Source: Deltaproteobacteria bacterium
Lineage (GTDB): Bacteria > Desulfobacterota > Desulfobacteria > Desulfobacterales > SpSt-501
Length of the DNA stretch: 34,475 nt
Direction: 5' to 3'
Assembly: GCA_016219005.1 (NCBI GenBank)
Contig: JACRCN010000007.1
Span: 1-34,475, forward strand
The notes beneath the pieces were generated by a model, which was not told the origin of the DNA, searched no databases, and worked only from the letters and a program-made list of their open reading frames with translations. Every line of letters starts with the position of its first letter. Position 1 is the stretch's first letter. A program made the position numbers and the translations under genes. Of the stretch, positions 7,755-25,870 are shown one piece after another.

Positions 7755-9038
7755 ATGAAGATCGACCTCTTGTATGGCCGCGGCAAGCTGGCCGTTGATT
7801 TCCCGGATCACCTGCAGATCACCACCGTCCGCAAACGCGCCATGACGGCGGCGGCGGACCCGACCGGCGACCTGAAAAAGTCCTTTCAAGCCCCCGCGGC
7901 GGCGTCCCCGCTGCGGGAACTTGCCCGCACGCGCAAGACGGCCTGCATCCTGATCTGCGACATCACCCGACCCGTTCCCCACGGCCTGCTGCTGCCGCCG
8001 CTCGTTGCGGAGCTCGTAGCCGGGGGCATCACGAAGGAGAACATCCTGATCCTCGTGGCCACCGGCCTGCACCGGCCCAACGTGGGCGAGGACCTGCGCG
8101 AGGTCATCGGTTCGGATGCGGTGTTCAAAACGGTGCGCATCGAAAACCATTTCGGCCGGGACCGACAGGCTCACGCGGACCTCGGGCGAACGCCCTCCGG
8201 GATCCCCATTTTGATCGACCGGCGCTTCGTCGAGGCCGACCTGCGCATTACGGTGGGCTTGGTCGAGCCGCACTTCATGGCGGGCTACTCCGGCGGGCGA
8301 AAGCTCGTTGTCCCCGGGGTCGCGCACTGCGACACGATCTTCCGGCTGCACGCGGGCGGCATCATGGACCACCCCAACGCCGCCAACTGCGTTATCGACG
8401 GCAACCCGGTGCACCGCGAGCAGCTGCATATCGTGCGGGCGATAGGGGAGATCTACGCCCTGAATGTCGTCATCGACGAGGAGCGGCGCATCGGGTTCGT
8501 GAACTTCGGGGAGGTCGAAGCGAGCCACCTGGCGGCCGTCTCGTTCATGCGCGATTATGCGGAAGTGTCTCTGCCGCGGCGCTTCAAGACCATCGTTACC
8601 ACGAGTGCGGGCTACCCCCTGGACAAGACCTACTACCAGACGATCAAGGGTATGGTCGGGGTCCTGGACATCCTCGATCCCGGGGGCACCATCGTGATTG
8701 CGAGCGAATGCTCCGAGGGCATGGGCAGTCCGGAGTTCGTGGAGGCCCAGCGCAGGCTCTGCCGGCTGGGACCCGAAGCGTTCATGGCCGAGATCCTGTC
8801 CCGCAACCTGGCGCGGATCGACGAGTGGCAGACCCAGATGCTGGTCAAGGCCCTGCGTGCGGGCGACGTGAAGCTCTTCACCACCCGCCTGAAGCCCGCG
8901 GACCTCGCCGATATCTGCGTGACGCCGGTGGCTTCGGTCGAGACGGCCGTGCTGGAAAGCACGAAGGTCCACCGGGATGCCTGCGTTGCCGTAGTCCCGG
9001 AAGGCCCGTATGTCATTCCCGTCTTTCGGCAGGCATGA
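7755..9038 (+). CDS. LarA-family nickel-pincer racemase/epimerase (first copy)
   Basis: LarA racemases use a nickel-pincer nucleotide to remove and return hydride at the alpha carbon of hydroxy acids. This 427-aa protein keeps the family residues: D69-x-T-R72-P (substrate/cofactor loop), H106 in VATGLHRPN, H173 in EPHFMAGYSGGRK with K183, and H199. The YQTIKG segment near residue 296 matches the conserved Gln/Lys pair. These map onto D72, R75, H108, H174, K184 and H200 of Lactiplantibacillus LarA. The substrate need not be lactate, since many homologues act on other acids. GAGGTG precedes the ATG. The cofactor genes larB, larC and larE are not in the window. It converges on the methyltransferase operon. 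Confidence 0.85.
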   Translation: MKIDLLYGRGKLAVDFPDHLQITTVRKRAMTAAADPTGDLKKSFQAPAAASPLRELARTRKTACILICDITRPVPHGLLLPPLVAELVAGGITKENILILVATGLHRPNVGEDLREVIGSDAVFKTVRIENHFGRDRQAHADLGRTPSGIPILIDRRFVEADLRITVGLVEPHFMAGYSGGRKLVVPGVAHCDTIFRLHAGGIMDHPNAANCVIDGNPVHREQLHIVRAIGEIYALNVVIDEERRIGFVNFGEVEASHLAAVSFMRDYAEVSLPRRFKTIVTTSAGYPLDKTYYQTIKGMVGVLDILDPGGTIVIASECSEGMGSPEFVEAQRRLCRLGPEAFMAEILSRNLARIDEWQTQMLVKALRAGDVKLFTTRLKPADLADICVTPVASVETAVLESTKVHRDACVAVVPEGPYVIPVFRQA

Positions 9039-9085
9039 TTGAGGCGGAAAGGCAGTTCGATCTCCTCCTGCGTCGTCCCGAACCG

Positions 9086-9163
9086 GTGGGAGCGGCATGC
9101 CCGCCGCGATGGAACCGTGGCCAAAAACGGGCTCCGGTCATCGCGGCCGTAAGCCACTCCCAC
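9086..9163. repeat. Long imperfect hairpin between convergent genes
   Basis: GTGGGAGCGGC at 9086-9096 pairs with the complementary GCCACTCCCAC at 9153-9163 with one mismatch, and GCCGCGATG pairs perfectly inside it. The stem is about 28 bp with a small internal bulge. Such GTGGGAGCGGC palindromes are common intergenic repeats in some proteobacteria. Here it sits between the LarA-family stop (9038) and the methyltransferase stop (9181), where it could stabilise or end both transcripts. Confidence 0.7.
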
Positions 9164-9180
9164 ATGTATTTTATGGATAC

Positions 9181-9981
9181 TTACGAAGCCGTCAATTTAC
9201 CGGCCCTGAAAGCTTTCAGGTAGTTCATGCAGTAGGCATCGTGGCCCATCAGCGTTTCGGCGGTGGTGATGCAGCCCATCATGCGCGCATCCAGCGGGTT
9301 GACGATGGCTCCGTCCAGGCCCCGGGCAATGGCCATCACCATGAAGGTCTGGTTGATGAACTTGCGCTCGGGCAGCCCGAAGGAAATATTCGACAAGCCG
9401 CACATGGTGTGAACGCCCTTGAAGGTCTGGGTGATGCGCTCGACCGCCTGCAGGAACTCCACACCGAAGGCGTTGTTGGTTGCGACCGGCTGAACCAGCG
9501 GGTCCACATAGATGTTCGCCAGGGGCACATGGCTCCGGACCAGACCGTTGATCAGCTTGTCGGCAATGGCCATGCGCTGGTCGGCGGTTTCGGGCATGCC
9601 GTCGTCGCTCATGCAAAGGGCCACCACCTTGCTCTTCGATTCCGCCACCAGAGGCAGCAGCGTGTCATAGCGCTCCTTTTCGAGCGATATCGAGTTTATC
9701 ATGGCCGTACCTTTGTGCACGGCGAGTGCCGCTGCGATCGCCTTCGGGTCCGGGCTGTCGATGCAGCAGGGAACCTCCGCAACACTCTGGACGGTGGCGA
9801 CCAGCCACTTCAGCAGTTCGGGCTCCCGGCCCACGAACACGCCGGCGTTGACGTCGATGTAATCCGCCCCGTGCTCCCGCTGGTCCCGGGCCAGTTTCGC
9901 GACACCTGCGGCATCCTGGTTCTCGAGGATTTCCTTGACCGACTTACGGCTGGCGTTGATCAGTTCCCCCACAATCAGCAT
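9181..9981 (-). CDS. Methyltetrahydrofolate-corrinoid methyltransferase (MeTr type)
   Basis: This is the methyltransferase II component, passing a methyl group between a corrinoid protein and tetrahydrofolate. The 266-aa product has the pterin-binding TIM-barrel of AcsE/MeTr (262 aa in Moorella). The Moorella active-site residues D75, N96, D160 and N199 are matched here by D75 (CCIDS), N96 (MINS), D160 (YVDPL) and N198 (GLSN), almost without offset. The ATG at 9981 has GGAGGG upstream. The frame runs open to 10113, but that part overlaps the end of the upstream gene and is not conserved. It lies 34 nt after the methyltransferase-corrinoid fusion, so the two are very likely cotranscribed and work in sequence. 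Confidence 0.9.
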   Translation of the reverse strand: MLIVGELINASRKSVKEILENQDAAGVAKLARDQREHGADYIDVNAGVFVGREPELLKWLVATVQSVAEVPCCIDSPDPKAIAAALAVHKGTAMINSISLEKERYDTLLPLVAESKSKVVALCMSDDGMPETADQRMAIADKLINGLVRSHVPLANIYVDPLVQPVATNNAFGVEFLQAVERITQTFKGVHTMCGLSNISFGLPERKFINQTFMVMAIARGLDGAIVNPLDARMMGCITTAETLMGHDAYCMNYLKAFRAGKLTAS

Positions 9982-10015
9982 AATCCCTCCCTCCTTCCAT
10001 CCATAGACGGGTTCA

Positions 10016-11947
10016 TCACGCCCTTTTCTGGAGCAGCTTCCGGGCCAGATCGACGCTCGATCCGGCATCCGCTCCGTAACCGTCCGCGCCGATGTCGCGC
10101 GCAAACTTTTCATTGACCGGCGCCCCGCCCACGATAACCTTCACCGTGTTCCTCAACCCGCGGGTCACGAGCAGGTCGATGACCTTTTTCATCTCCGGCA
10201 TGGTCGTGGTGAGCAGCGCGGACATCCCCAGGATGTCCGGCCGGTGCTTCTCGACGTTGGCCACGAAGTCCTCCACGCTGATGTTGATCCCCAGGTCGAC
10301 CACGTCAAACCCCACCCCGCGCAGCATGGTGGCAACCATGTTCTTGCCGATGTCGTGCAGGTCGCCGCGCACCGTGGCGATGAGGACCTTGCCGCTCGCG
10401 TCCCGCTTTTCCTTGGCGAGATAGGGCTCGAGCACGGTTAGGGCCAGGTTCATGGCGCGGGCGGACAGCAGCACTTCGGGAATGAACACCGTGCCGTCCC
10501 GGAAGCGCCCGCCGATCACTTCCATCGCGGTGAGCATGCCCCGGTTGAGGATGTCCTTGGCGTTCAGCCCCTGATCGAGCAATGCTTGTACGTGGCCTTT
10601 GATGCCGGCGTCGTTGCCGGCGAGCACATCCGCATGCACGATCTGGAAGACATCGTCGGGTACCGCCTGTTGCGCCACGCGCCCGGCGGCCGCTTTCAAC
10701 TGCGCCTCGGTCAGGGGGCGCGCCGCCCCGGCCTGCAGCGGCAGCCGGCTCTCCTTTTCAACGCGTTCTCCGATCAGGGCCAGGCGGTCGAAGTCGGCGT
10801 TGGGCGGAGTGGTGTCGGCTACGGACAGGATGATGCGGCTGCCCGGAGCCACGGCTTTGAAGAAGTGGTCGAGGTAGGCGTTGAGATCATCCAGGCTTGC
10901 CGTGGTCGGGGAGAGCAGGGATTGGATCAGCCCGCCCATGAGGGTCAGTTTGCCGGACTTGCACCAGCGTTCGTAGTAGGTTTCGATGGGCAGCTTGGTC
11001 ATGGGCGCGCAGCAGACCGCCTCGGCCACATGCATGCCGGAGTCGGCGATGAGGTCGATGAGGCCCTGGTTCTCGCCGTCGCAGTGGCAGATGACAAGCT
11101 TGCCCTTGGAGGCCAGGTGCGCCGAGGCCTTGCGGAGCCAGGGAGTCATTTCCTTCTGAAAGTAGGGCGGGTAGGTGATCATGTCGTCGTAGTTGGCCCC
11201 CCACAGGACCACCTCGGCCGGCGATTCGCCCACAACCTTCAGGATTTGCTCATACACCAGGCCTATGGCCTCGGCGAGGCGCCGCATTTCCTTGTGGTGA
11301 TCATTGTAATGAAAAAAGAATTCGGTGGCATCCAGGAAATCGCGCTGGATGTGGTGGACGGGCGAGGCGGAGAAGGTGCCCATCATCACGGCGACCCCGT
11401 CGTCGCCGATGCGCTGCTGCCAGGCCCGGTAGCGGTCGTAATCCGGGGTCACCGTGATGTTCTCGAAGATGTAGGCCCAGATCTCGTAATCCTCGATCCG
11501 CTTGATGCCGTGTTCCTGTACCCAGGTGATGGAGACACCGGCATTGCGCATCTCCTCGTTGATCACCTCCTTGGTGCTGACGACACCCTTGGGGGTGTGG
11601 TACTCCACCCGGGTGGCTTCTTCCTCGCCGCGGCGGGTTTTCTGGACTTCCAGCTTGACGTTGGGCGAAAAGTTGATCCTGTAGCCGTTTTCCTTGAGGC
11701 TGTAGAGGCCGATGCCCCGGGTCAGGTTCTCCCGGGGGTCGACCACCTCCAGGAGCTCCGGGATGACCTTGTGCAGGGCCCAGCCCTCGGCCCGGGCGAT
11801 TTCATCGTGGGTGCGGCCCGCGTGGCGCTTGGGCAGGGTGCCCTGGTAGGAGTTGGCGTTGTACCAGAGGTCGAAGCGCGGGGTATAGGGCATCACATCC
11901 GGAGTCTCGCCCCGCATGGTCATGAGGATGCGTTCTTTCTTGGTCAT
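10016..11947 (-). CDS. UroD-type methyltransferase fused to a corrinoid protein
   Basis: A 643-aa fusion of methyltransferase I and its methyl carrier. Residues 1 to about 400 form a uroporphyrinogen-decarboxylase-like domain (start MTKKERILMTMRGETPDVMP; later GANYDDMITYPPYF and LSVADTTPPNADFDRL). A linker rich in A and Q follows, to about 430. Residues 440-520 are the helical cap (ILNRGMLTAMEVIGGRFRDG), and 520-640 the B12-binding domain, with D529-x-H531-x-x-G534 giving the lower-ligand histidine. At the usual H-x-C metal site the sequence reads C287-H-C289-D-G, so the first ligand appears to be Cys. Related O-demethylases keep the two parts on separate chains. It is followed at once by the MeTr gene, the expected acceptor. 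Confidence 0.88.
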   Translation of the reverse strand: MTKKERILMTMRGETPDVMPYTPRFDLWYNANSYQGTLPKRHAGRTHDEIARAEGWALHKVIPELLEVVDPRENLTRGIGLYSLKENGYRINFSPNVKLEVQKTRRGEEEATRVEYHTPKGVVSTKEVINEEMRNAGVSITWVQEHGIKRIEDYEIWAYIFENITVTPDYDRYRAWQQRIGDDGVAVMMGTFSASPVHHIQRDFLDATEFFFHYNDHHKEMRRLAEAIGLVYEQILKVVGESPAEVVLWGANYDDMITYPPYFQKEMTPWLRKASAHLASKGKLVICHCDGENQGLIDLIADSGMHVAEAVCCAPMTKLPIETYYERWCKSGKLTLMGGLIQSLLSPTTASLDDLNAYLDHFFKAVAPGSRIILSVADTTPPNADFDRLALIGERVEKESRLPLQAGAARPLTEAQLKAAAGRVAQQAVPDDVFQIVHADVLAGNDAGIKGHVQALLDQGLNAKDILNRGMLTAMEVIGGRFRDGTVFIPEVLLSARAMNLALTVLEPYLAKEKRDASGKVLIATVRGDLHDIGKNMVATMLRGVGFDVVDLGINISVEDFVANVEKHRPDILGMSALLTTTMPEMKKVIDLLVTRGLRNTVKVIVGGAPVNEKFARDIGADGYGADAGSSVDLARKLLQKRA

Positions 11948-12024
11948 TTCTCGGCGTTCCTTTTCTCTCCGGTTAGGTCCCCGGACGTTTCCGCTTCAGC
12001 CGCCGCCGGCTTCTCAGCGTCGGT

Positions 12025-12615
12025 TTAAAATTTCGGCGGCGTGATGATCAGATAAAATTGACATATCTTCTTGTGGGGGTTCACGAGCCGGTGGGGGGCC
12101 GAGCTGTCGAAATAGAGGCTGTCTCCCTTCTTCAATTCCCTTTGGCTCTGCTGGAATTCCACCCGCAGCGCTCCCTTGAGGATCACGAGGCACTCCTCGC
12201 CGTCGTGGGCCAGCGGATCCTCAGAGGTCATGCCGCCGGGCTGAAGGGTGCCGATCATGATCCCCATTTTCTTGGTCAGCTCGGAGTGGATGATCTCGTA
12301 TTCGAGACCGCCCCCCGGAAAGTTCACCCGCCGGCGCTTCTCCTTTGAAACCAGGCTGGCGTCGTCGGGGCTGCTTTCTGCGATCAGCGCAAACACGGGA
12401 ACCCCCATGGTCAAAGCGATCTTCCGCAGAGTGGAGAGCGAGGGGTCAACCCGGTTGTTTTCGACCTGGCTGACCAGACTGGCAGATACCCCGGCCCCCT
12501 CAGCCACCTGTTTGAGAGAGAACCCCTTTGATTTTCTCATCTCACGGATTTTCTGCCCCACATTCACTCCGCCGGACAGGTCCGGGCGGATCGCGGCTGC
12601 GACGTTGTTGCCCAT
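12025..12615 (-). CDS. XRE-family regulator with cupin sensor
   Basis: A 196-aa one-component regulator. The helix-turn-helix lies at residues 20-76 (QKIREMRKSKGFSLKQVAEG, then SLVSQVENNR and PSLSTLRKIA). A cupin domain covers about 115-190 (HDGEECLVILKGALRVEF, then GDSLYFDSSAPHRLVNP) and would bind a small ligand or metal. I prefer ATG 12615 because GAGGG lies 9 nt upstream. ATG 12639 would overlap the dctM stop as ATGA and would add eight residues (MKVRGLNA). Its place between the TRAP genes and the methyltransferase fusion suggests that it senses the imported acid and controls this operon. Confidence 0.9.
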   Translation of the reverse strand: MGNNVAAAIRPDLSGGVNVGQKIREMRKSKGFSLKQVAEGAGVSASLVSQVENNRVDPSLSTLRKIALTMGVPVFALIAESSPDDASLVSKEKRRRVNFPGGGLEYEIIHSELTKKMGIMIGTLQPGGMTSEDPLAHDGEECLVILKGALRVEFQQSQRELKKGDSLYFDSSAPHRLVNPHKKICQFYLIITPPKF

Positions 12616-12635
12616 AGCGTTTAACCCTCGCACCT

Positions 12636-13916
12636 TCATCGGCCCATCAACAGGTCCGGCAGAATCATGGTGATCGGTGGGAAGAAAATGATGATGATCA
12701 GCGATAACACCAAGGGAACATAAAACGGCAGGATCTCCCGGACGGCCTTGGCTACCGGAAGCTCCGCAATGTGGGCCGTGATGTAAAGCACCATTCCGAC
12801 CGGCGGCGTCAGGGTGCCGATCATCACGTTGAGCGTCATGACGACACCGAAGTATATGGGATCGAACCCAAGCTTGGTGATGATGGGCACGAAGATGGGG
12901 ATGGTGATGATCATCACGGAGGCCGTTTCCATGAAGCAGCCCATGAACATGAGGATCAGGTTGATCAGGATCATGATGACCCATTTGTTGTCGCTGATGG
13001 AGAAGAGCAGGCTGACCATCGCCTCCGAAATCTGCTCGTTGACCACAATCCACCCGAAAACCGACGCGGTGGCGATGACGAACATGAGCAGAGCGGTGGT
13101 GTGCACGGACTCCAGCAGGACCTTGGGCAGCGAACGAACGTTAAACTCGCGGTACAGCAGACCCAGGAGAATGGAGTAGGCCACCGCGATGGCGCCGGCC
13201 TCGGTCGGGGTGCAGACGCCGATCACGATGCCGCCGAGGATGATGACCGGTGCGAAAAGCGCGAGCCACCCGGCCTTGAAGTTTTTCCAGATGCGCCGGG
13301 CGCTCGTTTTTTCCTCGCGCGGGAAATTCTTTTTGACGGCCGTGTAGTACACCAGCGCCATCAGGAAGAAAGCGATCACGAATCCGGGCAGGAACCCGCC
13401 TATGAAGAGCTTGCCCACCGAGCATTCCGCAATGACGGCGTAGATTACCATGAGAATGCTTGGCGGAATGATGGGCCCCAGCACCGCGGAGGACGCCACG
13501 ACCCCGGCCGAGAACCCGCGCGGATATCCCTTCTGGACCATAGTGCCGATGGAGACCGTGGAAAGGCCGGCCGCATCGGCCGTGGCCGAGCCCGAGATCC
13601 CGGACAGGATGACCTCGGCCACGATGATGACGTGGCAGAGTCCTCCCCGCAGGGAGCCGACGAGGCTCAGGGCGAAATCAAACAGGCGCTGGGTCATTCC
13701 CGTCTGGTTCATGAGCGAGCCCGCGAGAATAAAAAAGGGAATGGCCAGGTAGGTGTAGCTCATGATCCCGGAAGACAGTTGATGGGCCATGACCATGAGC
13801 GGGTAGCTGCCGGCGATGAGAAAATAGAACAGGCACGCTATCCCCATCGCGAATCCGATCGGACAGCGCAGGATCATCAAAACGAGAAACGAGACGCACA
13901 GGACCGTAAACGCCAT
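12636..13916 (-). CDS. dctM: TRAP transporter large permease DctM (first system)
   Basis: The 426-aa integral membrane subunit drives sodium-coupled uptake of a carboxylate handed over by DctP. About 12 hydrophobic segments are visible. Family segments include GSATADAAGLSTVSIGTMV, AVLGPIIPPSILMVIYAV and, near the C-terminus, TLTPPVGMVLYITAHIA. The length is normal. It begins 6 nt after the dctQ stop, so the two are translated together. Confidence 0.95.
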   Translation of the reverse strand: MAFTVLCVSFLVLMILRCPIGFAMGIACLFYFLIAGSYPLMVMAHQLSSGIMSYTYLAIPFFILAGSLMNQTGMTQRLFDFALSLVGSLRGGLCHVIIVAEVILSGISGSATADAAGLSTVSIGTMVQKGYPRGFSAGVVASSAVLGPIIPPSILMVIYAVIAECSVGKLFIGGFLPGFVIAFFLMALVYYTAVKKNFPREEKTSARRIWKNFKAGWLALFAPVIILGGIVIGVCTPTEAGAIAVAYSILLGLLYREFNVRSLPKVLLESVHTTALLMFVIATASVFGWIVVNEQISEAMVSLLFSISDNKWVIMILINLILMFMGCFMETASVMIITIPIFVPIITKLGFDPIYFGVVMTLNVMIGTLTPPVGMVLYITAHIAELPVAKAVREILPFYVPLVLSLIIIIFFPPITMILPDLLMGR

Positions 13917-13922
13917 GGCGGA

Positions 13923-14426
13923 TTATCCTTTGGGGTTGGTGTCGGGGGCTGCGAACTCGATGGCGCGCCGCAGGAAGGAGAGAAGGATGCAAAAGCACAT
14001 CGCGACGCTGCTGATCAGCACGGGCAGCGAGAAATAGTTCTTCGGGATGCCCAGGGCGACCGTGTAGTGCCGCGACTGAAAGAACTGCAGCTTGTAGGCG
14101 CCCCATGCCACCACGACCAGAAAACCGAACATGAGGACACAGTTGAGCAGGCCCAGGGCCTGCTGCGCCCGCTGGGGCAACAACTTCGTGAAGAAATCGA
14201 TCTCGATGTGCTGCTCCTTCTTGAGGAGCAGGCTCGACCCGAAAAATGTCATCCAGACGAGCAGAAGCGTGCACAACTCCTCCGGCCAGGTCAACGGGTG
14301 GTTGAACCCATACCGGGTCACCACTTGCGCGATGGTGATCAGCGTCGATGCTCCTATGAACACGGTGGCGAAGCAGCTTTCGATTTTTTCGATGACGCGG
14401 TTCAGAACCTGCAGTGCTCGCAGCAT
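13923..14426 (-). CDS. dctQ: TRAP transporter small permease DctQ (first system)
   Basis: The four-helix small membrane subunit, 167 aa from the chosen start. The central signature NHPLTWPEELCTLLLVWMTF is typical of DctQ. I chose ATG 14426 (MLRALQVLNRVIEK) because AAGGAGC lies 9 nt upstream. The longer GTG start at 14477 would fall inside a stem-loop and has poor spacing. Membrane helices lie at about 20-40, 57-75, 94-114 and 134-156. Confidence 0.9.
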   Translation of the reverse strand: MLRALQVLNRVIEKIESCFATVFIGASTLITIAQVVTRYGFNHPLTWPEELCTLLLVWMTFFGSSLLLKKEQHIEIDFFTKLLPQRAQQALGLLNCVLMFGFLVVVAWGAYKLQFFQSRHYTVALGIPKNYFSLPVLISSVAMCFCILLSFLRRAIEFAAPDTNPKG

Positions 14427-14452
14427 GCGGAAAATGCTCCTTTCCGGAGACC

Positions 14453-14489
14453 CGGCGGAGGGGAACTCCTGCGACACGCCCCTCCGCCG
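14453..14489 (-). other. mRNA stem-loop between dctP and dctQ (first system)
   Basis: CGGCGGAGGGG (14453-14463) pairs perfectly with CCCCTCCGCCG (14479-14489): an 11-bp stem with a 15-nt loop and no T run. It lies right after the dctP stop (14504). Such a structure can protect the binding-protein message and make DctP more abundant than the permease. The second TRAP operon has an unrelated-sequence stem-loop in the same place (22841-22865). Confidence 0.7.
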
Positions 14490-14503
14490 ACAACGAAATC
14501 GAT

Positions 14504-15493: not shown

Positions 15494-15603
15494 GATGGTC
15501 CTCCTTGCCTTTGGTGTTTGGTTTTGCCCGGAATGGGTGCTTCAACAACAACCCGGAATGTGCTCTTTTTGGGGTAGTGCCAAAATACATAAAAAGCAGA
15601 TTG

Positions 15604-17723: not shown

Positions 17724-17806
17724 TGCTCCTTCCTGCTGAAACTAAATGTCGATCGTGTCCCTTGTCGCAGTTCCTTCGAGCTTCGAGCTTTCAGGTTCCA
17801 GCTTCT

Positions 17807-18817: not shown

Positions 18818-19602
18818 GTTTTGCGTGACCTCCTGGCTCCGGTGACACCGGTATTGGAACGGATGAGTTTGAACCCGCAGAGGGATTCCTTTTCGAGATC
18901 GATGTGGAGGTTGGATTCGATGCGCCGCACCACGTCGAAAAGGTGCCGTACCATCAGCTGCTCGGCCTGGTCCTGGTCCTTGTCGGCGATGGCGTCGGCC
19001 ACCCGGGTATGAAACTGCAGGGCATCGTCGACGGCCCCGGGCAAGACGGCCACCTCGCCGATGAAGCGCTGCAGCATGTCGTGGATGGTCTGCAGGAACT
19101 TGAGGAGCACCCGGTTGCCGCAAATTTGCGTCACTTCGAGGTGGAAAGCGGTATCCTGCTGGGTGAATTCGGCGGTATCATGGTTCTTGAGGGCCCGGGC
19201 CTGCAGCCTGAGGTTGTTGCGAAGGCGCTCGAGATCCTCCGGTTTGGCGCGGGCGACGGCCAGGCGCACGGCATTACGCTCGATGCAGATGCGCGCCTCG
19301 ATGAACTCCCGTACACTCAGGGGGTCCAGCAGAAACTGGCCGCTCAGCGTACTCATGTACCCGCCCGGGCTGGGCGGTTCGACCACCGTGCCCACCCCCT
19401 GCCGGGCCCGCAGCAGCCCCATGGCGGAAAGCTTGTTGACGGCTTCCCGCAGGGTGTTGCGGCTCACCCCGAGCTGCTTGGCGAGCTCGTCCTGGGGCGG
19501 CAGCTTCTGGCCGCGCGCATAGCGGCCCGTGGCGATCATCTCGTGGAGCGCCTCGAACACCTGAGTCGTGGCCGATGCCTTTTGGATGGGTTTCACGTCC
19601 AT
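18814..19602 (-). CDS. GntR/FadR-family transcriptional regulator
   Basis: A 262-aa regulator. The N-terminal winged helix (about residues 10-75) contains DELAKQLGVSRNTLREAVNK and the wing ARQGVGTVV. The C-terminal FCD ligand domain has the metal-binding D/H pattern (DTAFHLEV, then FHTRV and MVRHL). FCD regulators usually sense small organic acids. The start is uncertain. I prefer ATG 19602 (MDVKPIQKAS), which gives the usual distance to the helix-turn-helix; in-frame TTG 19683 and ATG 19668 are longer options without well-placed ribosome-binding sites. Its ATGA overlap with the MtaA-like gene shows that it is part of the operon, so autoregulation through the site at 24044-24066 is plausible. 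Confidence 0.9.
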   Translation of the reverse strand: MDVKPIQKASATTQVFEALHEMIATGRYARGQKLPPQDELAKQLGVSRNTLREAVNKLSAMGLLRARQGVGTVVEPPSPGGYMSTLSGQFLLDPLSVREFIEARICIERNAVRLAVARAKPEDLERLRNNLRLQARALKNHDTAEFTQQDTAFHLEVTQICGNRVLLKFLQTIHDMLQRFIGEVAVLPGAVDDALQFHTRVADAIADKDQDQAEQLMVRHLFDVVRRIESNLHIDLEKESLCGFKLIRSNTGVTGARRSRKT

Positions 19603-19690
19603 ATTGGTACGCTCGGTCGGTTTGGGGAAACGATCCCCCGGTGCAAGCTTCCGGGCAGCGCGGCGCATGGGTGCCACCGGCAAGCACCTT

Positions 19691-20983
19691 TCAGCCGGCA
19701 GAGTCCGGCCCGCCGGATTTTCCGGCGATCACCCGGCGCAGCCCGGGGAGTTCACCCTTTTCGTCAAAGGGCAGCGCGAAGCGCCCGGTGGATACGGAGA
19801 GCCCCTTGGCTTGAGCTTCCGCGACCAGGGCGGGCGAGACCGCCAGCCGCGTCAGGTCCGCGGTGTTGATGATCCAGACCATGCGTACGGACGCCATGTC
19901 CCACAGGCCGATGGAACGAAAGGCGGCCTCGAGCGCCCTGCGGTCGGAGGAAAGCACAATCGGTATCCGCGCCTTTTCCGGCGCGACCGCCGTGATGCAG
20001 TTGAGCGCGGTCATGTCCGCGTCCATCCGGTCCACGACCCGCCGGTGCACGTAGTCGGCCAGCCCCAGACCGATGGCGTTGCCGCCGGTCTTGGCCGACA
20101 GGTCGCGCAGCACGATGCGCGTGACCCGCGGCCGCTCGCACTCCTTCTCGTAGATGTTCATGATCCGGCCGATCACCTTGGTGTCGAAGCCGGCGCCCGA
20201 AATATCCTTGCCGATCTCGTCCACCAGCAGGACGTCCAGCCGGTCGAAGGGCAGGGATGCGTGGTGCTGCCGAGCTTCCGCGAGCAGCTGCGGCTCGCGC
20301 TCGAACACGGCCGCGGCCGGCACGGCCTCCAGGCGGCGCACCGTGTTGGTCTTGTCTTCGAGGATGGCGACACCCCCGAGAATCGGAAGCTTTTGGAACA
20401 GGACCCTGGCAATCGCCGTAATGGCCTGGATATAGCTGATCCGCACCGCGAGCTGGTGCATGACCTCGGCCCCGGCGACGCGGCCCAGGCCCACCACGGC
20501 CATCTTGATCAGGCCGGACTCGATCGCGCCGATGAACTCCGTGTGCTCCTTGACGCGGTTGACGATGAGGATGTGGTCGGCTTCGATCGCCGCACGGTCG
20601 GCATATACCGGACACCCCTCGGCTTCACCGATCACCATCGGTTCCATGCGGTCGTGAATGGGCGCCCCAAGCGCAGCCTCGGTTTGCCCCAGATGTTCGA
20701 GCACCGCAATCTGGCCCCGGGCCGTGCCGCCGCCGTGGCTGCCCATTGCCGGGAGGATGACGGGCTTTGCGCCCTTCTGCTTCACGGCGGCGACCACCGC
20801 GCCGAGCACCTCGCGCATGCAGCCAACACCCCGGCTGCCGGCCGTGACGAGCACGGTCTGGCCGGGCCTGACGCGGTTCAGCAGGTCTGCGCGCCATATT
20901 TCGTCGAGGGCGCAGCGCCGGGCATCGAGCCGCGCTTCGGTCGCGAACCCCTGGTCGATCAGTTGCAGTTGCGGCAGTTCCAT
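19691..20983 (-). CDS. LarA-family nickel-pincer enzyme (second, divergent copy)
   Basis: A 430-aa member of the LarA superfamily (DUF2088), only distantly similar to the copy at 7755. The loop reads AGS50R51G in place of the D-x-T-R-P of LarA. H83 (PAMGSHGGGTARGQ), H147 (VKEHTEF) and K160 (SGLIKMAVVG) occupy the places of the two catalytic His and the pincer-linked Lys. The sequence type resembles what databases call nickel-pincer isomerases of unassigned substrate (from memory). GGAG lies 7 nt before ATG 20983. It sits 22 nt after dctM, so it is cotranscribed with a carboxylate transporter and probably acts on the imported acid. Confidence 0.82.
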   Translation of the reverse strand: MELPQLQLIDQGFATEARLDARRCALDEIWRADLLNRVRPGQTVLVTAGSRGVGCMREVLGAVVAAVKQKGAKPVILPAMGSHGGGTARGQIAVLEHLGQTEAALGAPIHDRMEPMVIGEAEGCPVYADRAAIEADHILIVNRVKEHTEFIGAIESGLIKMAVVGLGRVAGAEVMHQLAVRISYIQAITAIARVLFQKLPILGGVAILEDKTNTVRRLEAVPAAAVFEREPQLLAEARQHHASLPFDRLDVLLVDEIGKDISGAGFDTKVIGRIMNIYEKECERPRVTRIVLRDLSAKTGGNAIGLGLADYVHRRVVDRMDADMTALNCITAVAPEKARIPIVLSSDRRALEAAFRSIGLWDMASVRMVWIINTADLTRLAVSPALVAEAQAKGLSVSTGRFALPFDEKGELPGLRRVIAGKSGGPDSAG

Positions 20984-21005
20984 TGGCGGCTCCGTTTCAA
21001 TTCCG

Positions 21006-22325
21006 TTAGTGCCTGATCAGCAGCTTGGGCAGCCACAGCGAGAGGCCGGGCCAGCCCACGGTCACGATGTTGGCTACGACCGTCCACCACAGGTAGGGCA
21101 TGGTGGCTTTATAGATCTGGGTCATGGTGACCTCCGGCGGGGTGATGCTTTTAAGATAGAAGGCCGACGGCGCAAACGGCGGGGTCAGGTAGGCCAGGTG
21201 CATGTTCATGCAGTAGACCACGCCGAACCAGACCGGATCGAACCCGAAGTCCAGGATGATCGGCAGGAAGATGGGTACCGTCAGGAACAGGATGCCGATC
21301 CAGTCCAGGAAGCAGCCCAGGAACGCCCAGATGAAATTCATCAGGATCACGGTGCCCCACGGTCCCAGGTCCATCGCCTTGAGGGCGTTGGTCACGAAGG
21401 TGGTGCCGCCGGCGAGCGTGTAGGCGCCGATGATGGTCTGGGCCCCGAAGAAGAGCCAGGAGAGCATGCAGGAGATGCGCAGGGTCTCATAGAGTGAGTC
21501 GCGCACCATGCCGAAGCTGAACTTGCGGTTGACGACCGCTGAAATTAAGGCCAGCATCACGCCGACCCCCGCGGCCTCGGAGGGGGTCGCCAGCCCGGCA
21601 TAGATGGAGCCGAGCACGCCGCCGGCGATGCAAAGCGGCAGGATGAGCTCTTTCAAGGTGGCGAGCTTCTCCTTGACCGACATGTCGCGCAACTCTTCGG
21701 CCACGAGTGGAGCCGCCTCCGGGTGCCGCCAGCAGTGAAAGATTACATAGGAGATGAACATCCCGGCCAGCAGGAGCCCGGGCCCGACTCCGGCCAGGAA
21801 GAGCTCGCCCACCGAAACACCGGCGGTCATGCCGTAGACGATGAACACCACACTCGGCGGGATGAGCGTCGCTAGCCCGCCGCCGGCTGCAATGCTGCCC
21901 AGCGCCAGTTTGTAGTCGTATTTCTTGTTCAGCATTTCCGGCAGCGCGATCAGACCGAAGGTCACGATCTCGGCCCCGATGATGCCCACCATCGAGGCCA
22001 TGATGGCGTTGGCGATGATGGTGCCGATGGCGATCCCGCCGCGCACCCCGCCGGCCCACACGTTGACGGCCCGGAACAGCTGGTCGGCGATGCCGGCCCG
22101 CTGCAGGAGCCCGGCCATGAGTACGAAGAGCGGGACCGACATGAGCGTGTAGTTCATGCTCATGTCGAAGACACGCGAGACCAGCATCATCATGACGCTT
22201 GGGTCAAAAAGGTAGAGCACGAAGGCCACCGCCACCGCGCCGATCGACCAGGCGAGCGGCAGGCCCAGGGCCATGAGCAAAACCATGCCGACGACAATCA
22301 GGATACTGATCCACTCGATGCTCAC
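21006..22325 (-). CDS. dctM: TRAP transporter large permease DctM (second system)
   Basis: The 439-aa multi-helix membrane subunit for sodium-coupled acid uptake. Typical segments are GIIGAEIVTFGLIALPEML, ATLIPPSVVFIVYGMTAGVS and HLAYLTPPFAPSAFYLKSI. It starts with GTG at 22325, sharing GTGA with the dctQ stop (4-nt overlap), which means coupled translation. It differs clearly from the first system, so the two transporters are not a recent duplication. Confidence 0.95.
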   Translation of the reverse strand: MSIEWISILIVVGMVLLMALGLPLAWSIGAVAVAFVLYLFDPSVMMMLVSRVFDMSMNYTLMSVPLFVLMAGLLQRAGIADQLFRAVNVWAGGVRGGIAIGTIIANAIMASMVGIIGAEIVTFGLIALPEMLNKKYDYKLALGSIAAGGGLATLIPPSVVFIVYGMTAGVSVGELFLAGVGPGLLLAGMFISYVIFHCWRHPEAAPLVAEELRDMSVKEKLATLKELILPLCIAGGVLGSIYAGLATPSEAAGVGVMLALISAVVNRKFSFGMVRDSLYETLRISCMLSWLFFGAQTIIGAYTLAGGTTFVTNALKAMDLGPWGTVILMNFIWAFLGCFLDWIGILFLTVPIFLPIILDFGFDPVWFGVVYCMNMHLAYLTPPFAPSAFYLKSITPPEVTMTQIYKATMPYLWWTVVANIVTVGWPGLSLWLPKLLIRH

Positions 22326-22822
22326 AGTTCTTCACCCTTCATGATGTAGTAGAAGTCGCGTACGAATTTGGCCGTCTGCTGCAGCAGCAGCATGATCAGC
22401 GAGACGACGAGGGCGATCTTGAGCGGCCAGATGACCGGGTCCCAGGGGCTCATGGTGGTCTCGCGCACGGCGATGGATTGCAGCATGTACTGCCAGGCGG
22501 CCCAGATCATGACCGCGATGTAGAGCAGAAAGGCGAAGTAGGTGACGCAGTCGATGATGGCCTTGCCGCGCCTGGAAAGCCCGTGGTAGAGCATGTCCAC
22601 CCGCACGTGCCCGTCCTGCTTCAGGGTCCAGGCCCCGCCCAGCAGGTAGAGCAGCCCGCAGCCGAACACCGTGGCCTCCGATACCCAGATGGTGGGCTTG
22701 ACCAGCACCTGGCGCACAAAGATTTCATACGAAATGATGAAGGCCACCACGAGCGACAGGATGCACACCACCTTGCCGATCCAGGTGTTTGTCGAATCGA
22801 TCAACGCCAGCAATTTTCTCAC
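22322..22822 (-). CDS. dctQ: TRAP transporter small permease DctQ (second system)
   Basis: A 166-aa, four-helix small subunit. KPTIWVSEATVFGCGLLYLL carries the conserved W-x-x-E after the second helix, and LKQDGHVRVDML is the usual cytoplasmic loop. The start is GTG at 22822 with GAGGAA upstream. It lies 54 nt after dctP, with a stem-loop between them. Confidence 0.92.
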   Translation of the reverse strand: MRKLLALIDSTNTWIGKVVCILSLVVAFIISYEIFVRQVLVKPTIWVSEATVFGCGLLYLLGGAWTLKQDGHVRVDMLYHGLSRRGKAIIDCVTYFAFLLYIAVMIWAAWQYMLQSIAVRETTMSPWDPVIWPLKIALVVSLIMLLLQQTAKFVRDFYYIMKGEEL

Positions 22823-22840
22823 GGTCGGTTCCTCGGTAGC

Positions 22841-22865
22841 GGGAGGGGGAGAACGCCCCCCTCCC
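22841..22865 (-). other. mRNA stem-loop between dctP and dctQ (second system)
   Basis: GGGAGGGGG (22841-22849) pairs perfectly with CCCCCTCCC (22857-22865) around a 7-nt loop, 11 nt after the dctP stop. There is no T run, so it is more likely a message-stabilising or attenuating structure than a full terminator. Confidence 0.65.
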
Positions 22866-22876
22866 CGGGTGTCAGG

Positions 22877-23920
22877 TTACTGAATGCGGCCGAGCTCGCG
22901 CAGCCAGGCTTCCTGCATCTCGATGGCGCGCTTGGTCTGCTCGTTCTTGCCCTTCCAGCCCTGCCATATCTCCATGGCGATCTTGCGGGCCTTGGCCCTC
23001 TCCTCCGGCGTCCAGGCGATCGGGGTGTAGCCCTTGGACTTGGCCTCGCTTACCAGCTTGGCATCCTCGATGGCAACCCGTTCGATGGTGTCCCAGGCCC
23101 ACTCGCGGCAGGCCGTGGTCAGGATCTGCTTGATGTCGGCCGGCAGTTTGTCCCATTCCTGCTGGCGTACGGTGAAGTCGCCAACCGGCATGGAGTGGAA
23201 GCCCGGGTAGGTGAAATAGGGGGCTACCTGGTGGAAACCGGTCTTGTCGTTGATGGATGCGGTGGCCCAGTTGGTCGCGTCCACGACACCCTTGTCCAGG
23301 GCCGAGAAAATTTCAGTTCCGGGCAAAACGACCACGGACGCCCCGGCCTTGGCCATGAACTCGGACTCCATGCCCTGGGGCTCACGGATCTTCAGGCCCT
23401 TGAAGTCCTCCATGTTGCGGATGGGCTTCTTGGACGGCCAGGATTCCAGGCCCCACACCATGACACCTACGGTGTAGGCGCCGAAGGGCTTGTAGAGCTC
23501 GCGCAGCAGTTCGAGGCCGCCCTTGTAGTGCATGAAGACATCCAGCTCCCAGGGGCTTTCATAGGCGAAAATGAAGTCGCACAGGGCCGCGAAGGCGGGG
23601 TTGCGGCCGCTGGCGTAGCCCGGCCACACGTGGATGGCCTGAAGCACGTTGCTCTGCAGGGCGGTCAGGGTTTCGTTGGTCGGGACGATGGCGCCGGCCG
23701 GGTAGGGCTCGATCTCGAGCCGTCCGTTGGTGAGGACTTTGACGCGCTTGCAGAAATCCTCGAAGGTCTTCTGCGGCGTTTCTTGAGCGTTCCACAGGGT
23801 CTGGGCCTTCCACTTGATGGGCGCCTGCTGGGCCGACGCGGGGCCGGCCGCCAGCGTGGCGGCGGCCATCAGGGCGATAGCGAAGAACAACACTCGTTTG
23901 CCTGCTGCCAGTCTCTTCAT
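22877..23920 (-). CDS. dctP: TRAP solute-binding protein DctP (second system, TakP-like)
   Basis: A 347-aa periplasmic receptor. ATG 23920 (MKRLAAGKRVLFFAIALMAA) gives a clean signal peptide ending near ASAQQ and has AAGGAGG upstream; the open frame beyond is spurious. The segment KGVVDATNWATASINDKTGF followed by APYFTYPGF resembles TakP-type receptors, which bind alpha-keto or alpha-hydroxy acids together with a sodium ion. GLKIREPQG carries the carboxylate-binding Arg. An alpha-hydroxy or keto acid ligand would suit the LarA-family gene downstream, but this is inference. It heads the eight-gene minus-strand unit. Confidence 0.92.
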   Translation of the reverse strand: MKRLAAGKRVLFFAIALMAAATLAAGPASAQQAPIKWKAQTLWNAQETPQKTFEDFCKRVKVLTNGRLEIEPYPAGAIVPTNETLTALQSNVLQAIHVWPGYASGRNPAFAALCDFIFAYESPWELDVFMHYKGGLELLRELYKPFGAYTVGVMVWGLESWPSKKPIRNMEDFKGLKIREPQGMESEFMAKAGASVVVLPGTEIFSALDKGVVDATNWATASINDKTGFHQVAPYFTYPGFHSMPVGDFTVRQQEWDKLPADIKQILTTACREWAWDTIERVAIEDAKLVSEAKSKGYTPIAWTPEERAKARKIAMEIWQGWKGKNEQTKRAIEMQEAWLRELGRIQ

Positions 23921-24235
23921 CGAACTTCCCTCCTTGGTGTGTGATGGGGTTTGCGTTCGGTGCGACCCGGGGCCCGGCACGGGCGAAAAGGCCCCCGGTA
24001 GCCGCAACTTTTGCCTTGCAGAGGATCTCTCCCTCGAAAATGCGTCCAATCATCCTACCATCGGACGAATGTGTCAATAGATTTTTTAGGGTGTGGGTGG
24101 TTGAAATGAGGTGTTTGGAGAATGGTGGGCTGGGTGGTCGCTGAATAAATCTTGCATCGGATGCCGAAATCAGGGATGAAGGACCGTCATCCTCAGCCGG
24201 ACGGATCATCAACCGGTTGGGATACTGAGAGCATT
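23921..24235. other. Divergent intergenic region between dctP and the corrinoid activator
   Basis: About 315 bp without a gene. It contains the minus-strand promoter and inverted repeat (24044-24077). A second small inverted repeat, GGATGA...TCATCC, lies near 24175-24193. No clear plus-strand promoter for the activator was found. Confidence 0.55.
24044..24077 (-). promoter_or_regulatory. Promoter with 23-bp inverted repeat for the upstream accessory operon
   Basis: The minus strand has TTGACA (24077-24072), a 17-bp spacer and GATGAT (24054-24049). The inverted repeat 24044-24066 has outer arms GTCC/GGAC plus matching A, T and T positions (7 of 11 per arm) and covers the -10 and most of the spacer, as a repressor site would. 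The FadR-type regulator of the same operon is the obvious candidate. Confidence 0.6.
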
Positions 24236-25870
24236 ATGGATTCAAGCATGCTGAAAATCAGCATTGACGATAAAACCGTCCGCGCCGGAAAAGGCGCCAG
24301 CCTGCTCGAGGCCATGGTGGCGGCCGGCCTCCTGCTGCGCGCCGACTGCGGCGGCCGGGGCCGGTGCGGCAAATGCCTGGTGCGGGTGGCCTCGGCTGAC
24401 GCAGGGGGGCTGAGCGCGCCGGACGAGTCGGAGCGCAGATTCCTGGGTGACGGGCGCTTGTCGACGGGGCACCGCCTGGCCTGCCGCGCCGTGGTTTACG
24501 GGACGGTGTCCGTCCAGGTCCCCGCCGAGAGCCGGCTTGCGCCGGAGGTGGTCCAAAAGGGCCTGCCCACGCTGCTCTCGCTGCCGGCCGCCCGACTCCG
24601 GCCGCCCGACTCCGCCTGGGGCATTGCCGTCGACGTCGGCACGACCACCGTTGCAGTCTACCTGTGCGATCGCCAACAACGCGTCGTCGCCGCTTCGACC
24701 TCGATCCGAAACCCCCAGGCCATCTTCGGCGACGACGTCATCAGCCGCATCAGCGCCGTGCGGCTGGACCCCGGGAGCCTGCCGCGGCTTCAATCCATGA
24801 CCGTCAGCGCCATCGACTGGGCCGTCAGCGCCCTCTGCCGACAGGCCGGGATCGACCCGCGCGCGATCGGGGCTGCGGTCGCGGTGGGCAACAGCACGAT
24901 GATCCACCTGCTGCTCGGGGAGAATCCCTCCTCCATCGGGGTCTTCCCTTACGCGCCCGGGTTCATCGAGGCCCGCAGTGTCTCCGCCGGAGCCGTGGGG
25001 CTCAAGTTCAACCCCGGAGCGCGCCTGCGCACCCTGCCGCTCATCAGCGGCTACCTGGGCGCGGACATCGTCAGCGCCGCCCTGGCGGCGGATCTCGCCC
25101 GGCGGGCCTGCGGCACCATGCTGGTGGATGTGGGGACCAACGGCGAGATCATCATGCTGGCCGACGCCGGTCTCTCGGCCACCTCCTGCGCCACCGGCCC
25201 GGCCTTCGAAGGTGCGGCGATCAGCCACGGGATGCAGGCGAGCTCCGGTGCCATCGACGCGGTCCGGTTCAACCCGCAGGCCGGCAACCTGGACGTCACG
25301 GTGGTTCAGCGCGGTGACGGACCTCCGCCGCGGCCGGCCGGCATCTGCGGCTCCGGCATCATCAGCACGGTGGCGGAACTGCTGCGCGCCGGCATCATTT
25401 CGAAGAGCGGCCGCTTCAATCCGGATGCGGACTCGGCATGCCTGCGGCCGGGGGCCAACGGTGCGGCGGAGTTCGAGATCGTCCCGGCGGGGGCATCGCA
25501 AACCGGCCGGCCGATCACGCTGACCCAGGCGGACGTGCGCGCGGTTCAGCTGGCCAAGGGCGCCCTGCGCACGGGGATCGACCTGCTGTGCCGCGAAAAC
25601 AACCTGCCGCGACCGGCCAGGATTCTTCTGGCCGGCGCCTTCGGCAGCTACATCGACAAGACCGCCGCGCTTGCGATCGGCATGTTTCCGGCCCTCCCGG
25701 AGAGCGCCATCGAGGTGGTCGGCAACGCCGCCGGCGCCGGAGCCATCCTCGCCCTTTTCGACGACGACTGCGTGAGCCGGTCCAAAACACTGGCGCAAAC
25801 GACCCGCGTGGTCGACCTCGCCGCCCATCCGGATTTTCAGAACACCTTCATCCAATCGCTGTCGTTCTGA
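24236..25870 (+). CDS. Reductive activator of corrinoid enzymes (RACE protein)
   Basis: An ATP-dependent activator that reduces inactive Co(II) corrinoid back to Co(I); the activating-enzyme part of demethylase systems. The 544-aa product has an N-terminal plant-type 2Fe-2S domain with C38, C44, C47 and C83 (DCGGRGRCGKC, then RLACRA). A linker follows, then an ASKHA ATPase-like domain from about residue 135 (AVDVGTTTVAVYL, later LVDVGTNGEI and AGAFGSYID). The start is taken at ATG 24236; ATG 24248 or an upstream TTG are possible, and none has a strong ribosome-binding site. It is divergent from the upstream operon and would serve both the separate and the fused corrinoid proteins. Confidence 0.92.
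   Translation: MDSSMLKISIDDKTVRAGKGASLLEAMVAAGLLLRADCGGRGRCGKCLVRVASADAGGLSAPDESERRFLGDGRLSTGHRLACRAVVYGTVSVQVPAESRLAPEVVQKGLPTLLSLPAARLRPPDSAWGIAVDVGTTTVAVYLCDRQQRVVAASTSIRNPQAIFGDDVISRISAVRLDPGSLPRLQSMTVSAIDWAVSALCRQAGIDPRAIGAAVAVGNSTMIHLLLGENPSSIGVFPYAPGFIEARSVSAGAVGLKFNPGARLRTLPLISGYLGADIVSAALAADLARRACGTMLVDVGTNGEIIMLADAGLSATSCATGPAFEGAAISHGMQASSGAIDAVRFNPQAGNLDVTVVQRGDGPPPRPAGICGSGIISTVAELLRAGIISKSGRFNPDADSACLRPGANGAAEFEIVPAGASQTGRPITLTQADVRAVQLAKGALRTGIDLLCRENNLPRPARILLAGAFGSYIDKTAALAIGMFPALPESAIEVVGNAAGAGAILALFDDDCVSRSKTLAQTTRVVDLAAHPDFQNTFIQSLSF

Follow-up and report, generated by a model that had tools for sequence, protein, structure and literature searches.

Why would a complete corrinoid-dependent demethylase be encoded among nickel-pincer isomerases and importers of the tripartite ATP-independent periplasmic (TRAP) type? 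The question is raised by contig C37 of the 5.24-Mb draft genome G000, a stretch of 34,475 bases that we call the window throughout, in which 16 genes within positions 7755-25870 encode a methyltransferase I (MTI), a corrinoid protein, a methyltransferase II (MTII) and an activator, that is, all parts of a four-component demethylase, together with two LarA-superfamily enzymes and two TRAP systems. One of these systems (TRAP2), the nickel-pincer enzyme NPN22, a GntR regulator, the UroD-type proteins UroDB and UroDA and the UroD-corrinoid fusion Fus recur together in distant relatives, and LarA1, the free corrinoid protein (CP), MeTr and RACo do so in a subset of them, which supports one functional unit, the other importer (TRAP1) and an HTH-cupin regulator excepted. 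We tentatively propose, as a reading that is possible rather than probable, that the cluster imports a small O-methylated 2-hydroxy (or 2-keto) monocarboxylate resembling O-methylglycerate and demethylates it to glycerate, with racemisation before or after.

All of the parts that a first-pass annotation had named were recovered in place with Pfam and NCBIfam: three UroD-type domains, a free and a fused corrinoid protein, MeTr, RACo, two LarA-superfamily enzymes, two DctPQM sets and two regulators. The genes are as follows.

7755..9038, plus strand: LarA1, LarA-superfamily 2-hydroxyacid racemase with the SAR/LAR-type signature F-M-W-Q (Pfam Lar_N 179.5 bits, LarA_C 72.5 bits)
9181..9981, minus strand: MeTr, methyltetrahydrofolate:corrinoid methyltransferase, MTII (NF005719 356 bits, cut-off 259; Pterin_bind 84.3 bits)
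10016..11947, minus strand: Fus, UroD-type methyltransferase domain plus corrinoid-binding domain, 643 aa (B12-binding 108, B12-binding_2 55, URO-D 22.7 bits)
12025..12567, minus strand: HTH-cupin regulator, XRE-type HTH plus Cupin_2, start inferred (Pfam HTH_3 51.2, Cupin_2 54.2 bits)
12636..13916, minus strand: DctM1, TRAP1 large permease (DctM 416 bits)
13923..14477, minus strand: DctQ1, TRAP1 small permease (NF007374 51.7 bits, below the cut-off of 260; phmmer to DctQ2 22 bits)
14504..15493, minus strand: DctP1, TRAP1 solute-binding protein (DctP 225 bits)
15961..16605, minus strand: CP, free corrinoid protein (B12-binding 100.7, B12-binding_2 76.8 bits)
16650..17723, minus strand: UroDA, MTI candidate with HSDG motif, distantly CdmB-like (URO-D 75.3 bits; CdmB profile match E 6.1e-9)
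17807..18817, minus strand: UroDB, MtaA/CmuA-family methyltransferase with HxC...C triad (URO-D 229.7 bits; TIGR01463 250.6 bits, cut-off 235.4)
18814..19602, minus strand: GntR/FCD-family regulator, 4-bp overlap with the UroDB start (FCD 97.4, GntR 73.9 bits)
19691..20983, minus strand: NPN22, nickel-pincer isomerase group 22, LarA fold (NF052515 449 bits, cut-off 400; structure model)
21006..22325, minus strand: DctM2, TRAP2 large permease (DctM 272.7 bits)
22322..22822, minus strand: DctQ2, TRAP2 small permease (DctQ 81.6 bits)
22877..23920, minus strand: DctP2, TRAP2 solute-binding protein (DctP 164.8 bits)
24236..25870, plus strand: RACo, ATP-dependent corrinoid reductive activator, start inferred (RACo_C_ter 245, Raco_middle 161.6, Fer2 35 bits)

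The 14 minus-strand genes run in the order DctP2-DctQ2-DctM2-NPN22-GntR-UroDB-UroDA-CP and, beyond a dividing gap of 467 bp between CP and DctP1, DctP1-DctQ1-DctM1-HTHcupin-Fus-MeTr. The two plus-strand genes flank them, RACo beginning 315 bp from DctP2 and LarA1 converging with MeTr. The 4-bp overlaps of UroDB with GntR and of DctM2 with DctQ2 fit a reading as operon; no Rfam family reached its gathering threshold in the window.

Conservation of the cluster

Orthologues of Fus with 80-87% identity are present in five of six congeners. One of these, G002, has the order DctP2-DctM2-NPN22-GntR-UroDB-UroDA-CP-Fus-MeTr, followed by LarA1 and RACo, with neither TRAP1 nor the HTH-cupin gene, and two others agree with it as far as their contigs reach (G001: LarA1, MeTr, Fus, CP and UroDA; G006: RACo, LarA1, MeTr, Fus, CP, UroDA, UroDB and GntR). 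G004 and G005 carry DctM2-NPN22-GntR-UroDB-UroDA-CP followed by a gene for a D-2-hydroxyacid dehydrogenase, with no Fus within those stretches; Fus of G004 lies on a separate contig with the HTH-cupin gene and TRAP1, and the 4.3-kb piece that bears Fus in G005 has neither.

Beyond the genus, a scan of GTDB species genomes for NPN22 yielded 72 loci, the nearest of which (at least 69% identity) come from records named Desulfobacterales, Desulfobacteraceae or Deltaproteobacteria. Among the 16 loci with at least 49% identity (L087-L102), UroDA, UroDB and TRAP2-type genes were each found in 11, Fus in 10, GntR in nine, free CP in six, LarA1-type genes in four, and MeTr and RACo in three each. UroD or Fus genes stand beside NPN22 in 12 of these 16 loci as against 0 of the 56 more distant ones (some on short contigs), where no UroD, Fus or corrinoid gene of the cluster type was found; the four close loci that lack UroD and Fus are L088 (whose 3.2-kb contig holds just DctM2 and NPN22), L093, L094 (4.9 kb) and L095.

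Six of the close loci (L097-L102), from Candidatus Adiutrix and other metagenome-assembled genomes (MAGs) named Deltaproteobacteria, show the order TRAP2-GntR-UroDB-UroDA-NPN22-Fus where the contigs allow, and a LarA gene adjoins the cluster in L098 and L102; free CP, MeTr and RACo were not found in the Adiutrix-type stretches examined. These MAGs presumably derive from termite or cockroach guts. Since the gene set recurs both in the congeners and in Adiutrix-type genomes, we do not regard it as a chance assembly.

A tree of 82 NPN22 proteins places the UroD-linked members in two supported positions, clade A (13 of 17 rows) and clade B (all three rows, G000:C33, G004:C134 and G005:C412), and the linkage label changes four times on it (well-supported branches force three changes), compared with a mean of 14.8 for shuffled labels and with none of 500 shuffles reaching so low a number. 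The tree omits L069, L070, L071, L141, L143, L159 and L160 as copies of other rows and L157 and L158 as fragments, and the label 'none' of L088 is based on its 3.2-kb contig. The importer associated with clade A is of the TRAP type and that of clade B of the Tct type: the clade B loci L061 and L062 combine NPN22 with a UroD protein, TctC and TctA genes and a Fus paralogue, and with a divergent set encoding an HpaI-type aldolase, a 2-hydroxyacid dehydrogenase and a xylose-isomerase-like protein (a small ORF of L061 was named TctB by position or eye). L072, a 6.4-kb contig, shows less of this set.

That both TRAP systems and both regulators serve one pathway, as the first-pass annotation had supposed, is not supported by these comparisons. 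Among the loci read, TRAP1 and the HTH-cupin gene adjoin Fus only in the window and in G004, and the interval from CP to Fus lacks them in G001, G002 and G006 and in L090, L092 and L096; DctP1 and DctP2, moreover, differ in their closest solved relatives, those of DctP1 being 4pc9/4ovt and then the SiaP group. TRAP1 with its regulator is a separable, non-conserved insert, and TRAP2 belongs to the conserved set. The same annotation had made conservation of the LarA and TRAP genes a test of its idea of a pathway for a methylated hydroxy acid: NPN22 and TRAP2 were not refuted by it, and the conserved association of NPN22, TRAP2 and UroD/Fus supports its link between racemisation and demethylation. 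LarA1-type genes occur in the four loci counted above and also in G001, G006 and G077.

DctP1, DctM1, DctP2, DctQ2 and DctM2 were assigned by Pfam, and DctQ1 by its below-cut-off NCBIfam match and its 22 bits to DctQ2. L090 has a second unit upstream of TRAP2 (1198-6681), in which a TRAP1-like set and an HTH-cupin gene stand with genes for a corrinoid protein and a UroD protein of 385 aa, so that HTH-cupin and TRAP1 also accompany other methyltransferases. A shared GntR operator of the FadR type (pattern TNGTNNNACNA) was found nowhere in the window and in no consistent place in ten relatives.

The nickel-pincer enzymes and a possible substrate

LarA1 carries all seven LarA residues (D72, R75, H108, H174, K184, H200 and K298), at places that were found by motif and agree with an alignment to LarAIp, the broad-spectrum enzyme that is its best relative in the PDB (9eid, 356 bits). 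Its four specificity positions read F-M-W-Q, which contains the W-Q signature of lactate/glycerate racemases. The cluster-adjacent LarA proteins of the Desulfobacterales loci and of L161 have the same four residues, and those of L098 and L102 have F-F-W-Q, the former passing the lactate racemase equivalog NF033504 (567.8 bits, cut-off 460). According to the available text of PMC11770544, lactate racemases have F, F, W and E/Q at these positions, and Gln at the last is offered as the explanation of the glycerate preference of LarAH43; LarAIp, in the available text of PMC11851776, acts best on lactate and 2-hydroxybutyrate, with glycerate next.

NPN22 has no Pfam match at E <= 0.001, and a sequence search against the PDB gave nothing useful, although it scores above the cut-off of the NCBIfam family 'nickel pincer cofactor-dependent isomerase, group 22' (NF052515). 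Its AlphaFold2 model (pLDDT 94.8) gave 18 PDB matches at E <= 0.001, all LarA-type (TM 0.44-0.57, 10-14% identity), and a profile comparison (probability 94%) aligned R51, H83, H147, K160 and H176 with R75, H108, H174, K184 and H200 of LarA, the place of D72 falling in a gap and K298 outside the aligned part. These five residues are invariant in all 58 aligned sequences. The alignment comprises the window and 57 of the 72 loci; it omits L092 and six loci whose frames are over-long, L157 and L158 (scores below 200 bits), and L111, L127, L131, L148, L150 and L151, which are cut off or poorly ended. As judged from the model and the alignment, NPN22 has a LarA fold and LarA-equivalent cofactor and catalytic residues.

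Further group 22 genes of G000 occur on contigs C95, C13, C30, C54 and C20. On C54 (L066, G000:C54:14000-32000; 4173-10855) one stands with TctA/TctC genes and a protein of the galactarate/altronate-dehydratase family, and a further protein there has L-sulfolactate dehydrogenase as its best NCBIfam match (265 bits, below the cut-off of 500), so that this is possibly a cluster for a sulfolactate-type hydroxy acid with its racemase. On C95 (L063, G000:C95:1-12000; 3576-11096) the company is a GntR gene, a TRAP set and a protein of the ketopantoate hydroxymethyltransferase family, together with a 426-aa protein that matches neither Pfam nor NCBIfam.

The importer and the genes behind Fus bear on the nature of the substrate. 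The best solved matches of DctP2 are 4pe3 (205.2 bits), 2zzv (204.8 bits), whose sequence identifies it as the lactate-binding TTHA0766, the protein of the sensor 7e9y (175 bits), and the ketoacid-binding 7ug8 (126 bits). In five of the six Adiutrix-type loci (L097, L098, L100, L101 and L102) the first gene found after Fus, and on its strand, encodes a glycerate kinase (TIGR00045, 416 bits in L098). In G392 and G294 this operon gene is the sole TIGR00045 gene, and a DUF4147-type kinase was not found; G000-G005 and G077 each have one gene for a DUF4147-type glycerate kinase and no TIGR00045 gene, G003 having it without Fus, and neither kind was found in G006, which is 80% complete. The Adiutrix glycerate kinase, the W-Q signature of LarA1, the kinship of DctP2 and the 2-hydroxyacid dehydrogenase of G004 and G005 are the clues to a small 2-hydroxy acid, and they suggest glycerate as a candidate end product of demethylation.

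For the O-methylglycerate reading we infer the substrate and product, the order of the steps, the direction of methyl flow and the respective roles of UroDA, Fus and UroDB. TRAP2 would import the methylated acid, for which 3-O-methylglycerate (3-methoxylactate) and 2-O-methylglycerate are the candidates, and its enantiomers would be interconverted by a nickel-pincer enzyme, NPN22, the one inside the operon, being the likelier of the two. Cob(I)alamin, bound either to CP or to the corrinoid domain of Fus, would then receive the methyl group through the action of UroDA and/or the UroD half of Fus, and MeTr would transfer it on to tetrahydrofolate, with RACo repairing corrinoid that had become oxidised. 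Demethylation would leave a 2-hydroxy acid, most likely glycerate, which LarA1 would racemise and which would enter central metabolism through a glycerate kinase, encoded in the operon in Adiutrix-type bacteria and, in the genus of the window, belonging to the other family and encoded elsewhere in the genome, or through oxidation by a 2-hydroxyacid dehydrogenase.

LarA-type catalysis removes the proton of the 2-hydroxyl (PMC11770544, available text), so a nickel-pincer enzyme could act on the methylated acid only if the methyl group is located elsewhere, as in 3-O-methylglycerate; otherwise it would act after demethylation. The presence of two such enzymes allows for racemisation both before and after. 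A more specific version, in which the cluster is a dedicated anaerobic route for O-methylated glycerates or similar aliphatic methoxy hydroxy acids, with the group 22 enzyme isomerising the methylated acid and the corrinoid fusion freeing glycerate, we consider somewhat unlikely.

Methyltransferases and rival explanations

Conserved His-x-Asp motifs occur in UroDA (HSDG) and in FusN, the N-terminal half of Fus (H-C/T-DGEN). Both proteins lack an HxC...C triad, and from these sequences we regard both as MTI candidates. A UroDA profile found CdmB as the only solved relative, and a FusN profile found nothing in the PDB at E <= 0.01. The URO-D score of FusN is slightly below the Pfam cut-off of 23.9, and its low-confidence model matches the UroD structure 2eja at rank 42 (E 7.5e-6); with a pLDDT of 69.4 the Fus model is too poor for active-site reading and was used for the fold only. 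In the corrinoid half, D529, H531 and G534 of the corrinoid-binding DxHxxG motif are invariant in nine of nine sequences, and GDLHDIG also occurs in CP. Kinship of Fus with CmuA found no support, TIGR01463 (mtaA_cmuA) being absent from the 17 families that Fus matches at E <= 0.01.

UroDB belongs to the MtaA/CmuA family and need not be an MTI. Its closest solved protein is the methylcobalamin:coenzyme M methyltransferase 4ay7 (191.5 bits), and its HxC...C triad, which in this family we take to bind zinc, is kept in 24 of 24 rows (19 distinct loci, five of them counted twice). By sequence, UroDB may act in methyl transfer with a thiol as acceptor or donor.

Two further observations concern corrinoid proteins and their activation. 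Elsewhere in G000, another TRAP set is followed by a 591-aa UroD-corrinoid fusion (L077, G000:C74:18000-37000; 5304-10024), which brings the clusters of importer and UroD-corrinoid genes in this genome to at least three (C37, C33 and C74). In relatives (L069 at 17107-17847, also L078, L090 and L092) a small protein that scores 27.6 bits against the methionine synthase activation domain (cut-off 25) is encoded behind RACo or in the interval from LarA1 to RACo; the window yielded none.

How specific is the link between these methyltransferases and nickel? A search of 395 genomes from the phylum found FusN at E <= 1e-20 in 26, among them the window's genome, and 20 of the 37 places listed, mostly the best-scoring, were examined. 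Nickel-pincer genes occur in four of them (L159, L160, L161 and L178). In L161 the order TRAP2-GntR-UroDB-CP-Fus is followed by LarA1 and RACo, with no NPN22, and L178 combines FusN with genes for a Tct importer, an aldolase and dehydrogenases; its LarA has the Q-K pair that the available text of PMC11770544 assigns to malate racemases, but Arg in place of K298. In several of the nickel-less loci (L168, L170, L173 and L176) FusN is a free protein, encoded together with corrinoid proteins, UroDB, MeTr and TRAP2-like genes. Because the methyltransferase core also occurs by itself, the link is lineage-specific, and the nickel enzymes look like an addition, in some lineages, to a wider core of transporter plus demethylase.

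A number of observations weigh against the O-methylglycerate reading. The main fact that it leaves unexplained is UroDB, whose triad looks thiol-specific and points to thiol chemistry, not ethers. By profile search, nickel-pincer genes are absent from 16 of the 20 FusN loci (two of which, L172 and L177, are only 3-4 kb long), and the loci of the close NPN22 relatives L093-L095 are free of methyltransferase genes, NPN22 being the sole member of the set there apart from a GntR gene with a score of 46 bits in L095; in two of their genomes FusN was not found, and the third has a more distant relative of it (195 bits). The two-clade pattern of the tree can also be read as one gain with losses. LarA1 falls short of the NF033504 cut-off (351 against 460 bits), the top match of DctP2, 4pe3, names no ligand, and a weaker one bears the title of a sorbitol/mannitol receptor. 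A search of the draft genome G000 for LarC (PF01969), which is required for the cofactor, gave no match, although this genome has seven group 22 genes; because five of the six congeners have LarC, its absence may be a gap in the assembly, in which TIGR00268, which we take to be the LarE family, is matched at 322.8 bits. As for the kinase, there is none in the window itself and none behind Fus in L099, where the contig ends 1.4 kb further on. Glycerate kinases are also common in 14 control genomes, five having one family and four the other (nine different genomes), and the genome-level pattern is for that reason weak evidence and the position in the operon the stronger point.

The thiol-type triad is the main attraction of a different substrate, a methylthio hydroxy acid such as 2-hydroxy-4-methylthiobutyrate or 3-methylthiolactate, which UroDB, as a zinc-type enzyme, would S-demethylate, unless it methylates a thiol instead, while the nickel-pincer enzymes racemised the 2-hydroxy group. 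Bacterial MtaA-like clusters have been proposed for methyl-sulfur/selenide metabolism (PMC10418091, available text), yet that paper's cluster definition excludes a MeTr such as the one present here, UroDA and FusN lack the triad, and the glycerate kinase of Adiutrix-type operons does not fit. This explanation is the best surviving of the rivals, and still unlikely.

Decidedly improbable is a methoxylated aromatic hydroxy acid of the vanillyl-lactate or -mandelate type, imported by TRAP, demethylated at the aryl ether by UroDA/Fus and racemised in its side chain by LarA-type enzymes. In the available texts, CdmB resembles O-demethylases in sequence (PMC13222342) and the LarA superfamily includes phenyllactate-type racemases (PMC11770544), but LarA1 has W-Q, not the F/Y given for hydrophobic 2-hydroxyacid racemases (PMC11770544). 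Moreover, the kin of DctP2 bind lactate and ketoacids, the Adiutrix-type operons contain glycerate kinase, and no aromatic-ring genes were noticed among the annotated neighbours (most flanking ORFs are unannotated).

The kinase and the 2-hydroxyacid dehydrogenase may, on the other hand, be uninformative about the imported acid: hydroxypyruvate reductase and glycerate kinase are enzymes of the serine pathway, the methyl group would enter the folate pool through MeTr, and the two genes would then serve C1 assimilation (serine to hydroxypyruvate to glycerate), with some other carboxylate as methyl donor. In such a route a glycerate-type racemase would presumably be idle, and we rank this explanation lower still. 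Least probable is that unrelated units are merely neighbours, by chance or shared regulation, with NPN22 and TRAP2 for a hydroxy acid and the methyltransferases for something else, as the nickel-less FusN loci, NPN22 without UroD in L093-L095, LarA1 without NPN22 in L161 and the separate TRAP1 insert would allow, for the same set occurs in two distant lineages in rearranged order (NPN22 before GntR, or between UroDA and Fus) and a second NPN22 clade stands beside UroD and Fus genes.

In L095 (Dethiosulfatarculus sandiegensis; 9227-14448) the clade A group 22 gene lies between the GntR gene and three ORFs resembling 2-oxoacid:ferredoxin oxidoreductase, whose subunits were named by eye.

Relation to known systems

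Among the matches listed from the open-access literature, judged by titles and the beginnings of abstracts, we found no description of this gene combination, and likewise no described pathway with O-methylated glycerates or similar aliphatic methoxy hydroxy acids as methyl donors. By title, 2-O- and 3-O-methylglyceric acid appear in cyanobacterial and sponge natural products among the matches listed, most of the others concerning the C-methylated 2-methylglyceric acid of aerosols; we know of no environmental pool of O-methyl glyceric acids. The enzyme families of the cluster and its scheme of demethylation are known; what we did not find described among those matches is their conserved combination.

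The four-component corrinoid O-demethylases of acetogens and Methermicoccus, Odm, Vdm, Mtv and Mto, are the nearest in scheme, sharing a UroD-superfamily MTI, a corrinoid protein, a methyltetrahydrofolate methyltransferase and an ATP-dependent activator. Unlike them, the present cluster has several UroD domains (one corrinoid-fused, one MtaA-like), nickel-pincer isomerases and a TRAP importer, to which relatives add glycerate kinase. Our sequence comparison with known demethylases covered PDB chains; the four names occur in the available text of PMC13222342. The chloromethane system CdmBCA of Acetobacterium, described there, likewise combines a UroD-superfamily MTI with a corrinoid protein and an MTII, but the similarity of UroDA to CdmB is partial (38 bits) and CdmB is haloalkane-specific (PMC13222342).

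CmuA fuses UroD-type and corrinoid domains in one protein, as Fus does, but Fus has no TIGR01463 match at E <= 0.01. CmuA acts as both MTI and corrinoid protein (PMC13222342, available text). Type 1 mlp gene clusters share an MtaA-like protein, a corrinoid protein and a reductive activase with our cluster, but their definition, in the available text of PMC10418091, bars tetrahydrofolate methylases within 20 kb, and here MeTr lies at 9181-9981; a term search of the main text of that paper found no occurrence of TRAP, racemase, nickel or LarA.

To the LarA superfamily (LarAIp/SAR, the glycerate-preferring LarAH43 and group 22) LarA1 is tied by signature and sequence, and NPN22 by residues and modelled fold; the main texts of the LarA-superfamily literature searched contain neither 'group 22', 'corrinoid' nor 'methyltransferase', and describe no group 22 activity. 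DctP2 resembles the lactate-binding TTHA0766 and ketoacid-binding TRAP receptors in the scores given above. If the O-methylglycerate route were correct, group 22 nickel-pincer enzymes would gain a physiological context, and clade B would follow this logic a second time, using an aldolase and an importer of the Tct type. The comparison ties nickel-pincer isomerases, many groups of which are without known role, to corrinoid demethylation, and provides a short list of candidate substrates for two uncharacterised enzyme groups at once. It also suggests that small aliphatic methoxy acids may serve as methyl donors, a role which methoxy-aromatics, amines, betaines, methanol or haloalkanes have in the systems of the papers cited.

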